From Truepera sp. (GTDB taxonomy: Bacteria; Deinococcota; Deinococci; Deinococcales; Trueperaceae): a stretch of 64,000 nt of DNA. The notes under the pieces were generated by a model. The model had not been told where the DNA came from, did not search any database, and was given only the letters and a program-made list of their open reading frames with translations. Shown here piece by piece: positions 34,263 to 40,258 of this stretch. Location of the stretch: assembly GCA_032027045.1 (NCBI GenBank), contig JAVSMU010000001.1:342390-406389 (forward strand), given 5' to 3'. The position numbers were made by a program, and so were the translations under genes. The stretch's first letter is position 1. The number at the start of each line of letters is the position of its first letter.

Positions 34263-36611
34263 GTGGGGCTAGCGGTCATCATCGGTCCACCTGGCTCCGG
34301 CCGCACCACCCGGCTGCTCGCGGAGGCCAGGGAGGTGTGCGACTCGGGCGGGCGCGTCTGGTGGGTCGGCCTCCCCTCCCAACGCGCCCACCTCCTGAGG
34401 CGCCTGACCGCGGACGGTTACGCCGCGCTCGGCTTCGAGTTCATGAGCGCGCAACAGCTCTACTACCGCCTGCTGAGCGCCGCGACGACGCTGCAACCTC
34501 TCGTGGTGGGCACGGCGAGGCTGGTGCGCGTGGTCGAGGCCCTCCACCAGGTCAACCACGCGTTCCCGACGCCAGGGGAGGCGCGCCTGTTCGCGGCCGC
34601 CATCGCCGAGGCCAAGCGCTTCGCCGTGACGCCAGGTGACTACGAACTCCTCGCGGCGGACCATGAGCAACGGCGGTTCGCGCGCGTGTACCGGGCGTAC
34701 CAGGACGATATGCACGGCGTGTGGGACTACGACGACGCGCGGCTGGCGGCAGTCGACCTCGTTTCCACGGACGAGGTGGTCGTCGAGGCCGACCTGGTTA
34801 TCGTGGACGGCCTGCGTGAGGTCGGCCCCTTGGAGCTCCGGCTGTTGCGGGGTCTCTCGCGGCACGTCCCCCTCCGCCTCAGCCTGCCCCACCTTCCGCC
34901 GGGCGTAAGTGCCGACGAGGTCCTGCCACGCAGGGACGACGTGAGGGTAGAGCGCTACGCCGCCGCCAACCCCGTGGAGGAGGGGCGGTGGGTCATGCGC
35001 GCCGTCAAACAGGACCTCTTCGCCGGCGGCATGGAGCCCCTCGACCTGGCCATCGTTGCCCCTCCCGGCCGCGCCCGCGCCCTGGTCGCGCTGGCCGAGG
35101 AGTACGGCGTGCCACTGATGGACGAGACGCCGCTTGCCCTGGCGGACGAGGGGCCCGGCCGCGTGCTCGTCGATCTCCTGGAGCTGCCCGAGCAGCCGAC
35201 CCCGACGCGGCTCCTCGCGGTGCCGGAACTGGCCGAACTCGGACGGTTGACGCTGGAGGCCGGCGTGGCCGGCGGCGAGGCGGTCACGGAGCTCGCGCGC
35301 CGAAAGGTGTACCTCCTCGACGTTTGGAACAGGTGGCGGGAGCGCCTGCAGGTGCGGGGCGACCCGGTCGAGTGGGCGCGCGACCTGATTCGGGAGGCGC
35401 TGCCGGAAGCGCCGCTCGAGGTCGTCGAGCGGGCCCTGGCCAAGGCTCAGGAGGCCGCCAGGCTCGGTGCGGGCGACGGGTTCCGCGCCTGGTGGAAGGC
35501 GCTCCTCCTCGACTCACGCCAGCCGCGGCGAGAGGGTGCCGGGGTGGCGTTGTTGGACGCCAAGCTCGTCTCGGGCCGGCGCTACGCCAAGGCCTACGTC
35601 GTCGGCGCCGTGGAGGGCGCGTACGGTGCCGGTGAGCGCGAGGACTACTTCTTGCCAGAGGAAGCCCGCGTGGAGCTGGCCGAAGCGTTCGAGCGTTTGG
35701 GCCTCCCGCGGCGCTTTCAGGGCCGCGGCGAGGGCGTGGCAGAGGAACTCCTGCACCGCGCGACGCGCCTCGTCGTCACGGCCCCAAGGGCCGATCAGGC
35801 GGGCCAGCTGGTGCTGGACGAGGCGCTGTTCGGCCCCGCCGAGCCGCCCGAGCTTCCCCCCGTACCCGCCGGCAGCCGGCTCGAACTGGCGGAGCGCGTC
35901 CCCTTCGAACCCGACCTCTCCAACGTCGACTTCGGCGAGCCCTACGTCGAGAGCCTCAGGCGCTATCACGACTGCTCGTTCCGCCTCTGGGGCGAGGGGG
36001 TCATGCGCTCCGCCGGGCTGCTGCAAGCCGTAGAGGACGAGGCGGGCCGGCTGCGCTCGGACCTGCTTCGCGAAAGGGGCGGCCGGTGGACACGGACGAG
36101 CCTCTGGAAACTGGCCGGCGACCACCCCACCTACGCGGATTGGCTGAACGAGCATGCGACCGCGCTCACGCGCCTTACGTACGGGGTGGTACTGGGCGGG
36201 CGCGAGGGCTTCGCCGCCGCGTACCTGCACGCCACGGAGAAGGCCGTGCTGCCGAGCGGCCGGTTCCGGGTCACCATCTACCGCTTCGTGCCGTGGTCGG
36301 CGGCGTGGGACGCGGAGAGCGCCGAGCAGGCCCTGGCGAACCGCTGGAGCGAGTACTGGGCGGTGGGTGCCCTCTTCGCGCAACCCGCGTTCAACGTGGA
36401 CGAGGTCCACGTGGTCGTATGGCCCATCGGCGCGGCGCCGATCGACATAGCCCCATCTGGGGTGAAGCGGGGGTGGCGCCGCGTGTCTTCCAAGCGGCAC
36501 CTGGTAGCGCAGACCCTGCCCGCGTTCAGCCGGGGAGAGGTGCGCCCCAACCCTGGTTTCATCTGCCGCACCTGCCCTGTTTTCGACATCTGCCGCGAGG
36601 GCGTCCGCTGA
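34263..36611 (+). CDS. AddB-like protein: Fe-S cysteines kept, nuclease and Walker lysine lost
   Basis: 782 residues, first gene of a two-gene unit with an AddA-like helicase-nuclease. The N-terminus has a phosphate-loop-like GPPGSGRTT, in which the usual Lys is Arg. Four cysteines match the AddB iron-sulfur staple: Cys571 in YHDCSFRLW, then Cys768, Cys771 and Cys777 with C-x2-C-x5-C spacing. The stretch where AddB or RecB nucleases carry Asp and DYK (about 670-730) reads SGRFRVTIYRFVPWSAAWD and has no such residues. AddB of Bacillus is about 1,160 residues, so this is a short form. Likely a structural or Chi-recognition-type partner. GTG start without a clear ribosome site. Confidence 0.82.
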   Translation: MGLAVIIGPPGSGRTTRLLAEAREVCDSGGRVWWVGLPSQRAHLLRRLTADGYAALGFEFMSAQQLYYRLLSAATTLQPLVVGTARLVRVVEALHQVNHAFPTPGEARLFAAAIAEAKRFAVTPGDYELLAADHEQRRFARVYRAYQDDMHGVWDYDDARLAAVDLVSTDEVVVEADLVIVDGLREVGPLELRLLRGLSRHVPLRLSLPHLPPGVSADEVLPRRDDVRVERYAAANPVEEGRWVMRAVKQDLFAGGMEPLDLAIVAPPGRARALVALAEEYGVPLMDETPLALADEGPGRVLVDLLELPEQPTPTRLLAVPELAELGRLTLEAGVAGGEAVTELARRKVYLLDVWNRWRERLQVRGDPVEWARDLIREALPEAPLEVVERALAKAQEAARLGAGDGFRAWWKALLLDSRQPRREGAGVALLDAKLVSGRRYAKAYVVGAVEGAYGAGEREDYFLPEEARVELAEAFERLGLPRRFQGRGEGVAEELLHRATRLVVTAPRADQAGQLVLDEALFGPAEPPELPPVPAGSRLELAERVPFEPDLSNVDFGEPYVESLRRYHDCSFRLWGEGVMRSAGLLQAVEDEAGRLRSDLLRERGGRWTRTSLWKLAGDHPTYADWLNEHATALTRLTYGVVLGGREGFAAAYLHATEKAVLPSGRFRVTIYRFVPWSAAWDAESAEQALANRWSEYWAVGALFAQPAFNVDEVHVVVWPIGAAPIDIAPSGVKRGWRRVSSKRHLVAQTLPAFSRGEVRPNPGFICRTCPVFDICREGVR

Positions 36612-36621
36612 TGGTGCCCGC

Positions 36622-39480
36622 GTGAAGGTTCGCGTCGCCTCTGCCGGCACCGGCAAGACGACGAGCCTGGTCAAGCGCTACCTCGAGCTTGTCGACGCGG
36701 GCGTGCCCCTCGGCCGGGTGGCGGGAGTGACGTTCACGCGCGCCGCCGCGGACGAGTTGCGCCAGCGCGTGGCGAGCGGCATCGAGGAGGTGCTGGAACG
36801 CGGCAGCTTCCTCGGAAGCTACTACGCCCCAGCGGGCGACCGGGCGCTCTTCGAGCGCGCCCACAACGAGCTCGAGGGGGCGGTCCTCAGCACCATCCAC
36901 GGCTTCATGATCGCCGGGCTGCGCCTCAACGCTCCCAACCTGGGCCTCGACCCCGACTTCGCGCTGCTGGGCGAGTGGGAGGCGGCCGCCCTCTTCGAGG
37001 AGGAGTGCGCGGGCCTTCTCATGTTGGCAGAGAAACGGGGGCATCCGCTTCACGAGGCGGCGGCCGTCCTGGGCGGCGCGGCGGCGGAACTGTTGCTGCA
37101 GCTCTTCACCAAGCGTTCGCTTGGTCCCGAGCTGGTCTTCGGAAGCTCGCCCACCGAGGCGGCGCTCGAAGCCATGTACCGTGCGGCACTGACCAGGTAC
37201 GACGCAAGGCTAGGGGCAACGAGCCTGGCGCCCGGGGAAGTGGAGCGGCGCGCGCTGAAGATGCTGGACCGGCAGCTCGCGACGTCGCGCCTGATCGAGC
37301 GTTTCCCGCACGTCCTGGTGGACGAGTACCAGGACGTGAACCCCCTCCAGGGCGCCTTCTTCGAGAGGTTGGCCGCTGCGGGCGCGCGACTCGGACTGGT
37401 GGGCGACCCGAAACAGTCCATCTACGGCTTCCGCAACGCCGACGTGGCGGTGTTCCGTCGCGCGCTGGACGCCGCCGAGCTGGCCGGTGACCTTCAGCCG
37501 CCGCTCCGGGAAAGCCGCCGCCACGCGCGCGCCCCAGTGGCCTTCCTCAACCGTCTAACCGCCAAGCTGGCCGAGCAGGACCTGGGCTTCTCGCCGCGCG
37601 AGGCCCCGAGCGTGACGGGCGCCGGTGACCAGGCCGACGTTCTTGGCAGCGTGGAGCTGGTCGTGATCGAGGGTGGCGAACGACTGGACGTGTTGCGAGA
37701 CCGCGAGGCCGAAGTGTTGGCGGAGCGGTTGGAGGCACACTTCCGCCGCGGCGTGGCTTATGAGGAGATGGCGGTGCTCGCCAGGAGCCACGGTGCTCTG
37801 ACCAGGGTGGCCGCGGCGCTTCGCGGTAGGGGAGTGCCAGCGTTCGTCGTACAGGGGCGCGGCTACTACGAGCGCAGCGAGGTCCGCGACCTGCGCCACG
37901 CCCTGGCGGTCGGCGCCGGCCCGCTGGGTGCGGGCCTGTTGCCGTTCTTGCGCGGCCCGTTCGCGGGCCTCACCCTGCCCGAGATGGCCGAGCTGGCGCG
38001 GTTGGACCCCAGCGAGTGGCTGACTCGGCTCATCGAGCGCTTCCCGGCCGTCGCGGGGCGCATGGCGCGGCTTGCCAGGTTGGCGCGCGCCACGCCCCTG
38101 GAGGCCCTCAAGGGCATCTTGCGCGAGCCGCTCCTGGGCGGCAAGCGGTTCCAGGAACTGTTGACGCGGCGCGGTCGCGAGAACGTCGACGCGCTGCTCT
38201 TCGAGATGGCCGGCCAGCCGCCGCGGGACGTGGCGCTCTTCCTGGACCGCCTAGACCTCCTGGCGCGCCAGGCCGAGGCCGGCGACGTTCCACAGGGTGG
38301 CGAGGGCGTCCGGCTGCTCAGCATCCACGCCTCCAAGGGACTCGAGTTCCGGGTGGTCGGACTGTTCGATGCCGGCGCCTGGGGCTCCAATCGTCACTCG
38401 ACGCTCCTGGTCGAACCGGGGAGCGGCGCCGTGCGCCTGGCCGGCTCGCCGGACTTCGAGCAGGCCCAGCAGGAGGCCAGGCTTAGGGATGAACAGGAGT
38501 CCTTCCGCCTCTTGTACGTGGCCGCGAGCCGCGCCCGCGATGCGCTCGTGCTCACGGCCAGCATGGGCCGGCGCCCCGGCGTGTGGCTGGCCACCCTACT
38601 CGAGCTCGGTCTGGAAGGCGCGGGCGCACTGCCGGGCGTGACGCTGGAACGGCTGCCTTACTCGCCGCCCGAAGTTCTCATGGCCGGCGAACCCGAGGTG
38701 CCGGTGGGGGCGCTTCCCCCCGCGCCGTGGTTGGACGCCCGGCGCGAGAAGTCCGCGCTGCCGCCCGTCGTCAGTCCCTCCGCCCTGGCCCGGCTGCGCG
38801 CGACCGATGCCACCGAGACCGGTGAGGCCACCGAGGTCACCGGGGTCACCGACGGCGACGGGACCGACAGGGTCGACCGGCCTGACATGGAATACGAGGC
38901 CGACGAGCCGTTATCGCCTGCAGAGCGCAGCGCCGGTGAGGACGAACTCGAGCGTGGCCGCGTGGGCTGGGGCCGGGCCCGCGGCACGCTCACGCACTTC
39001 GCCATCGGCCACGACTGGCGCCCGGACGATCCCTCAACGAGGAGCACCCTGTTGGCGCAGGAGGTGCTGGCGCCCTTCGACCGGGCGCAACAGACCGAGT
39101 TGGTGGAGGAGGTGCTGGAGCTGCTGGGTCACTACTGGGGCATGCTGGGGCAGGCCTTACCGGCGCTGGGTGACCGAGGTGTCGACCGCGCCGAGCTGCC
39201 GCTGGCCGTCAGCCTCGGTGGCACGGTCTGGGAGGGCGTCGTGGACCGCCTCTACGAGGTAGACGGCGAGTGGTACCTGGACGATTACAAGACGGACAAG
39301 CTTTTGGCACCCGAGCGGTATTACGTCCAGTTGGGGCACTACCTGAACGCGACGGAGAGGGCCTTGGGAGTGCGGCCTCGCGGCCGGCTGGTGTTCTTGC
39401 GGCACGGCCGGCTGATCGAACCCCGGACGCATGACTTGGCCGACGCCCTCGAACGCGCCGGACTCGGAGGACCCGGCTAG
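36622..39480 (+). CDS. AddA-like UvrD-family helicase with C-terminal RecB nuclease domain
   Basis: 952 residues, 10 bases downstream of the AddB-like gene. Helicase motifs: Walker A ASAGTGKTT (6-14), FTRAAADELRQRV, Walker B VDEYQDVNPLQ (~233), GDPKQSIYGFRNAD, LLSIHASKGLEF and LLYVAASRARDALVL. The C-terminal nuclease has D875 in VVDRLYEV, DDYKTDK (887-893) and QLGHYL, complete for a PD-(D/E)XK enzyme. It should unwind and resect DNA double-strand ends for recombination. An acidic, Thr-rich linker (about 728-760) separates helicase and nuclease. The GTG start has no strong ribosome site. Confidence 0.9.
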   Translation: MKVRVASAGTGKTTSLVKRYLELVDAGVPLGRVAGVTFTRAAADELRQRVASGIEEVLERGSFLGSYYAPAGDRALFERAHNELEGAVLSTIHGFMIAGLRLNAPNLGLDPDFALLGEWEAAALFEEECAGLLMLAEKRGHPLHEAAAVLGGAAAELLLQLFTKRSLGPELVFGSSPTEAALEAMYRAALTRYDARLGATSLAPGEVERRALKMLDRQLATSRLIERFPHVLVDEYQDVNPLQGAFFERLAAAGARLGLVGDPKQSIYGFRNADVAVFRRALDAAELAGDLQPPLRESRRHARAPVAFLNRLTAKLAEQDLGFSPREAPSVTGAGDQADVLGSVELVVIEGGERLDVLRDREAEVLAERLEAHFRRGVAYEEMAVLARSHGALTRVAAALRGRGVPAFVVQGRGYYERSEVRDLRHALAVGAGPLGAGLLPFLRGPFAGLTLPEMAELARLDPSEWLTRLIERFPAVAGRMARLARLARATPLEALKGILREPLLGGKRFQELLTRRGRENVDALLFEMAGQPPRDVALFLDRLDLLARQAEAGDVPQGGEGVRLLSIHASKGLEFRVVGLFDAGAWGSNRHSTLLVEPGSGAVRLAGSPDFEQAQQEARLRDEQESFRLLYVAASRARDALVLTASMGRRPGVWLATLLELGLEGAGALPGVTLERLPYSPPEVLMAGEPEVPVGALPPAPWLDARREKSALPPVVSPSALARLRATDATETGEATEVTGVTDGDGTDRVDRPDMEYEADEPLSPAERSAGEDELERGRVGWGRARGTLTHFAIGHDWRPDDPSTRSTLLAQEVLAPFDRAQQTELVEEVLELLGHYWGMLGQALPALGDRGVDRAELPLAVSLGGTVWEGVVDRLYEVDGEWYLDDYKTDKLLAPERYYVQLGHYLNATERALGVRPRGRLVFLRHGRLIEPRTHDLADALERAGLGGPG

Positions 39481-40160
39481 CCGCCGCGCGTCACGCGTCG
39501 GTAGACGTGGGCGTTGCCGGACTTTCCCACACGTTCCACGAGCGCCAATGCGTGCAAGCAGTAGGCGGCCTGCTGGGCGAGGCGGCGTGGAAGGCGCGCG
39601 TGCGCGGCATATTCCGCCGTCGTGAAGGGCTCCTCTAGGCTGGACGGTAACAGCGTGAGCAGTTCCGCCGGCTCACGGAAGGCGACCCGCTCGTGTACGC
39701 GCTCGAGCCGGCGTCCGCACACTACCCAACCCCGTCTCCGCCAGGCCTTGCCCGCCTCGAAGCGTCGACTCTCGACCTCCTCGACCAGGGCCACCTCCAG
39801 CTCCAAGTTGGGGTGTTCGAAGAGGCCGGGCGCAGAGACCAGTTCGGAGAAGAGCTGCTCCACTCGGCCCCGCTTGGGCGACTTGCGTCGCTCGACGCGG
39901 CCGTCGGGGTGGAGCTTCTCCAGCCACCGCGTGTGGGCAACGGGTAACACCACCCTCACGCGGTGCTCGGGCAGGAGAGCGGCCAGTTTCTCGCGCATGG
40001 CGCCCAGGTTGCGCGTCTGGATCTCGATGAGGAGGCCGCCACACACCGCGTCGATCACGTAACCACCGACCTGCACCTCGAAGGCGCTTCCTGGCGGGGC
40101 GCTCAGGCGTTTGAGCTCAGCGTGCAGCGCCGACTCGTTGAGCGAACCTATGACGCTCAC
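39477..40160 (-). CDS. Predicted PD-(D/E)XK-like nuclease with C-terminal winged helix
   Basis: 227 residues from GTG 40160. The N-terminus (ESALHAELKRL) is followed by FEVQVGGYVIDAVCGGLLIEIQTR, in which Asp37, Glu46 and Gln48 have the spacing of a PD-(D/E)XK core with Gln replacing Lys. Next come RVRVVLPVAHTRWLEKL and the basic block RVERRKSPKRGR, likely for DNA contact. The last 60 residues resemble a winged helix (PFTTAEYAAHARLPRRLAQQAAYCLHALALVERV). I recall similar uncharacterised proteins in Chloroflexi and Deinococcota. Its 3' end overlaps that of the AddA-like gene by 4 bases, on the opposite strand. Confidence 0.75.
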   Translation of the reverse strand: MSVIGSLNESALHAELKRLSAPPGSAFEVQVGGYVIDAVCGGLLIEIQTRNLGAMREKLAALLPEHRVRVVLPVAHTRWLEKLHPDGRVERRKSPKRGRVEQLFSELVSAPGLFEHPNLELEVALVEEVESRRFEAGKAWRRRGWVVCGRRLERVHERVAFREPAELLTLLPSSLEEPFTTAEYAAHARLPRRLAQQAAYCLHALALVERVGKSGNAHVYRRVTRGG

Positions 40161-40200
40161 GGCGCCGGGGACACTTTCGCCGGGGTCATACCGACTCCCA

Positions 40201-40216
40201 CTAGGCAGCAGCCTAG
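40201..40216. promoter_or_regulatory. Inverted repeat in a divergent gap
   Basis: CTAGGC, AGCA, GCCTAG in the 98-base space between the nuclease-like gene and the 86-residue orphan gene. It could be an operator shared by both; no clear -10 boxes were found. Confidence 0.3.
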
Positions 40217-40258
40217 GGCGCGAACACACCGCGCGCCTCTCCGGTCCATCCTGGGTCC

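Follow-up and report, generated by a model that had tools for sequence, protein, structure and literature searches.

A nuclease-dead AddB-lineage protein with four invariant cysteines suggests a one-nuclease AddAB in Deinococcota

The window analysed here, a 64,000-nucleotide stretch of a Truepera sp. contig, contains a closely spaced addB-like and addA-like gene pair, whose features are listed in Table 1. Downstream of the pair lies a convergent gene (39477-40229, reverse strand) encoding a 250-aa protein that has no Pfam match, and within which YVIDAVCGGLLIEIQT faintly resembles a PD-(D/E)XK core. This gene and an upstream gene for a 142-aa membrane protein are conserved next to the pair only in some Trueperaceae.

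Table 1. Positions of the addB-like and addA-like genes and of their main features in the window.
Feature	Position	Strand	Remarks
addB-like gene	34263..36611	+	GTG start; 782 aa; catalytically dead nuclease domain; four cysteines of Fe-S type
Phosphate loop GPPGSGRTT, residues 8-16	34284..34310	+	Arg14 in place of Lys
Glu116	34608..34610	+	Equivalent of B. subtilis AddB latch E129; invariant 51/51 (profile alignment)
Arg469	35667..35669	+	Equivalent of B. subtilis AddB latch R629; invariant 51/51 (profile alignment)
Cys571	35973..35975	+	First of four cluster cysteines
Degenerate PD-(D/E)XK core, residues 652-677, AAYLHATEKAVLPSGRFRVTIYRFVP	36216..36293	+	Asp and (D/E)xK residues missing
Cys768, Cys771, Cys777	36564..36593	+	C-x2-C-x5-C
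addA-like gene	36622..39480	+	952 aa, GTG start 10 bp past addB stop; UvrD-helicase 9e-40; addA_Gpos 9.8e-49; PDB 3u44_A 3.7e-20
AddA Walker A region VASAGTGKTTSLV	36634..36672	+	
AddA nuclease motifs VVDRL...LDDYKTD...QLGHY	39226..39351	+	Conserved in orthologues with full-length reading

As a single query, the addB-like product gave no significant match in Pfam, NCBIfam or the PDB. A family profile of 51 orthologues matches B. subtilis AddB in the PDB (3u44_B, E=6.8e-11), and individual orthologues match the Pfam models ADDB_N (9/51) and PDDEXK_1 (25/51). An AlphaFold2 model of the window protein, made from the same alignment, has a mean pLDDT of 89.1; Foldseek searches with this model returned AddB chains at all of ranks 1-5 (E=4.1e-27 to 3u4q_B), followed by AdnA, UvrD-like helicases and RecC. 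Because both the family profile and the fold match AddB, assignment of the window protein to the AddB lineage is firm despite the absent nuclease. Among the 51 aligned orthologues, 24 of the 782 positions are invariant and, the short C-terminal cysteine segment aside, the N-terminal 120 residues form the most conserved stretch.

The Asp and DYK residues of the AddB nuclease, reported as absent in the first-pass annotation of this DNA, are indeed missing. The nuclease strand that reads IVDYKS in AddB is VTIYRF in the window protein, strand 668-677 contains no acidic residue, and position 656, which corresponds to the earlier motif Asp, is occupied by His. Across the orthologues the catalytic strand follows the pattern hIYRF, as opposed to VDYKS in AddB, and a (D/E)xK motif occurs in this strand in none of the 51. 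Since no member carries the motif there, loss of the AddB nuclease is old and phylum-wide, predating the divergence of the Deinococcota families, with the AddA nuclease retained. Six close pairs gave dN/dS values of 0.10-0.38 for residues 571-777, comparable to those of the rest of the protein; the dead domain is thus under purifying selection and is not decaying. With the defining residues of a PD-(D/E)XK nuclease lacking, the window protein is therefore an AddB-lineage protein and not a typical two-nuclease AddB. Our literature search found no account of a dead AddB nuclease.

The protein contains cysteines at positions 26, 571, 768, 771 and 777. The last four had been noted for their AddB-like spacing, and they prove to be invariant in all 51 aligned orthologues and to occur in all 37 additional sequences whose C-terminus could be read; Cys26 is not conserved. 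The four are predicted to hold an Fe-S cluster, most likely 4Fe-4S. Zn is bound in the structure of a related nuclease (PMC3466216), and a Zn site is possible at these positions.

The phosphate loop follows a different pattern. Loss of the Walker lysine (GSGRTT), which the first-pass annotation had set beside the nuclease loss, holds for the window protein and fails as a feature of the group: the position is Lys in 36 of the 51 orthologues, Arg in 10 and another residue in five, and Arg14 is common to the window's genus and a few others. The missing lysine is a minor local substitution and not part of a nuclease-loss syndrome. In some relatives (loci L070, L071, L050, L051 and L075) the whole loop has gone and the four cysteines are kept. 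Walker A and Fe-S cysteines were reportedly described by Cromie in 2009 as occurring only in subsets of AddB.

The neighbouring AddA was correctly described from the outset as having intact helicase and nuclease motifs. It combines a UvrD-type motor with a C-terminal nuclease, in which the H / D / DDYK / Q..Y motifs are all present, and the AddA family as a whole keeps every helicase motif together with the nuclease motifs H / D / (D/E)DYK / Q..Y.

A phyletic profile of the Deinococcota had been proposed as a check on the annotation. Nuclease-dead AddB orthologues were found in 97 of 111 Deinococcota genomes with a single-sequence search and in 100 of 111 with a profile search, in which the last few matches were weak. 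AddA adjoins AddB in nearly all loci examined, with a gap of approximately 2 kb in two loci of family f5 (L045 and L068). The Trueperaceae, Meiothermus-like and Thermus-like genera group largely by family in a FastTree tree, which is consistent with old and mostly vertical descent. A contig scan with the single AddB protein recovered only two close relatives, and a scan of viral contigs with the AddB alignment found no relative. The presence of the pair had also been remarked upon because Deinococcus radiodurans lacks RecBCD. This comparison was misplaced: the host belongs to the Trueperaceae, addAB has already been studied in Thermus, and the reported lack of it concerns Deinococcus alone. 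The genus Deinococcus seems to be absent from the 111 genomes, so its lack of addAB rests on one published account, in which the genes were not identified there (PMC9751324). Deinobacterium chartae, a member of the Deinococcaceae included as a control genome, matches ADDB_N.

The window's own genome encodes a second AddAB-like pair outside the window, at ~G000:C1:718.9-725.0 kb (L036:4862-10995). In its 901-aa B subunit the nuclease motif is intact (VVDYKSG; PDDEXK_1 1e-21) and the conserved cysteines are all missing; the LDWKSD motif of its A subunit is intact as well. This second system occurs in 14 of the 111 genomes, all of them Trueperaceae; four of these, all incomplete assemblies, are without the first system.

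A further copy of the nuclease-dead AddB with its AddA lies on the Oceanithermus profundus conjugative plasmid pOCEPR01 (NC_014753.1; L136:3385-11009), where AddB is annotated as hypothetical. Ahead of the plasmid pair, in the same orientation, lie genes for a RecD-like helicase and for a 199-aa protein of unknown function. The helicase matches the RecD2 model (E=4.8e-105), its closest PDB chain being 3e1s_A, which is named RecD, and a RecD-like gene stands beside the AddAB pair only on this plasmid. The pOCEPR01 locus is a RecBCD-like set built from AddAB parts.

In B. subtilis AddB, the residues that bind Chi include F68 and F210, and E129 and R629 form an ionic latch (PMC4824097). Both latch equivalents are invariant (Table 1), and this favours a RecC-like scaffold with a role in signal recognition. 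Latch conservation is the best computed evidence, indirect as it is, that the B subunit may still gate the 3' strand; R469 belongs to a motif that AddB-type proteins generally share, so that its invariance does not by itself point to Chi. The equivalent of Q42 is Q40, kept in 46 of the 51 orthologues. The F68 equivalent varies among them, and that of F210 is Leu184 in the window protein and Phe in 35 of 51 (F, Y or L overall), so that recognition may differ from that of B. subtilis or be absent. We infer that AddB may recognise a Chi-like signal and gate AddA; the sequence recognised, if any, is likely to differ from that in B. subtilis.

On these grounds we consider it quite probable that the pair forms a one-nuclease AddAB helicase-nuclease acting at double-strand ends, in which AddA would supply both the sole motor and the sole nuclease of the complex and AddB would be a stapled shell and scanner of the 3' strand. 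The proposal in the first-pass annotation that the B subunit has a structural or signal-recognition role fits the phylum-wide nuclease loss, the invariant cysteines, the intact AddA nuclease, the purifying selection and the latch, and AddB would probably act in guiding and signal reading, not in cutting. Its nuclease domain would persist as a shell that still folds and is under selection, held shut by the four-cysteine staple (most likely 4Fe-4S), and its helicase-like N-terminal half would form the channel in which the 3' strand is scanned. Before meeting a signal the complex would cut the 3' strand only; after it, the complex would run as a plain helicase. The 5' strand would be left uncut by the complex, or trimmed by AddA or by another nuclease, for instance RecJ, which is found in 31 of 31 relatives; alternatively, AddA may trim both strands, as RecB does. 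The RecBCD solution, with its second motor, is not evident because the RecD2 model has no match in the window's own genome.

Of the other explanations weighed against this reading, the most serious is that the B subunit serves only as a scaffold, for structure or processivity, and responds to no DNA sequence signal. The loose conservation of the Chi-pocket residues F68 and F210 would fit such a role, as would the loss of the Walker lysine in the window's genus and its outright replacement in some relatives, and we regard this explanation as rather unlikely in view of the two invariant latch residues, the retention of the Q42 equivalent and the strong conservation of the N-terminal 120 residues. 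A much less probable alternative is that AddB retains a cryptic, rearranged nuclease site, formed by other acidic residues with an Arg or Lys, which would leave the complex with two nucleases. PD-(D/E)XK enzymes can migrate their catalytic residues, the equivalent of position 656 is Asp in 38 of the 51 orthologues, and an Arg follows the conserved Tyr of the nuclease strand in 34. Against this stand His656 and the strand devoid of acidic residues in the window protein itself, the occurrence of (D/E)xK anywhere within 648-684 in just two of the 51 rows, both outside the catalytic strand, and the 24 invariant columns, which include no alternative acidic residue of the nuclease domain.

It might also be supposed that AddB is decaying, made redundant by the second, two-nuclease AddAB of the genome. 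This we find scarcely credible: the same nuclease-dead form is present in some 97 of the 111 genomes, most of which do not have the second system, the dN/dS values given above come from other lineages, and the window and its close relatives all have an uninterrupted frame. Our preferred reading is a one-nuclease AddAB in which the B subunit has a structural or signal-reading role, and the conserved nuclease-dead AddB is more general than the first-pass annotation had recognised.

More broadly, we propose tentatively, and with somewhat more doubt than confidence, that the Deinococcota possess a third architecture for end resection: a one-motor, one-nuclease AddAB whose B subunit would be an Fe-S-stapled, RecC-like scanner for Chi, and in which the 5' strand would fall to AddA or RecJ. 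AddAB devotes one nuclease to each strand, and RecBCD has one nuclease and two motors; a complex with one motor and one nuclease would test the handling of strand polarity and the purpose of the Fe-S staple where no nuclease has to be held together. RecBCD has been proposed to descend through an AddAB-like stage that preceded the loss of the RecC nuclease (PMC1185551). A one-nuclease AddAB bears on that proposal and, if the architecture is as we suggest, would represent a present-day counterpart of the proposed AddAB-RecBCD intermediate, the Oceanithermus plasmid version having gained a RecD-like helicase gene. Since Thermus is genetically tractable, and hypertransformable without addAB, direct tests are possible.

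The orthologous system is almost certainly the pair TT_C0638/TT_C0639 of Thermus thermophilus HB27, matched by length and neighbourhood. Both systems have two-component genes as neighbours, and the AddA and AddB products of the Thermus pair (857 and 737 aa) are shorter than those of the window. Thermus addAB is known genetically to be active in repair and to limit transformation: cells lacking it transform 100-1000 fold more readily and are more sensitive to damage (PMC9751324), and recO deletions select frameshifts in addA or addB (PMC11143384). That addB frameshifts are selected too suggests that the nuclease-dead AddB is needed for the activity of the complex. The passages of PMC9751324 and PMC11143384 searched for AddB features make no mention of the nuclease state of AddB.

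With B. subtilis AddAB (PDB 3u4q/3u44/4cej) the system shares the paired genes and an AddA that combines motor and nuclease; its AddB likewise has the helicase-like fold, the four-cysteine staple and the E129/R629 latch. B. subtilis AddB differs in its length (1166 aa in the structure, against 782 aa here) and in its active nuclease, where the window protein has no catalytic residues: in B. subtilis each subunit cuts one strand, AddA the 3' and AddB the 5' (PMC4824097). The window AddB also differs in the spacing of its cluster, with approximately 200 residues separating the first and second cysteines. Mycobacterial AdnAB is similarly a two-subunit helicase-nuclease, and AdnA is the next best fold match after AddB, but both AdnAB subunits carry nuclease residues, and its structures were solved with D934A and D1014A mutants. 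E. coli RecC resembles the window AddB in that its nuclease-like domain is inactive; in RecC this domain forms a DNA channel, and the inactive helicase-like domains read Chi (PMC1185551). A difference is that RecC works with a RecD motor, whereas the window's genome has no RecD2 match; the fold search also places AddB ahead of RecC.
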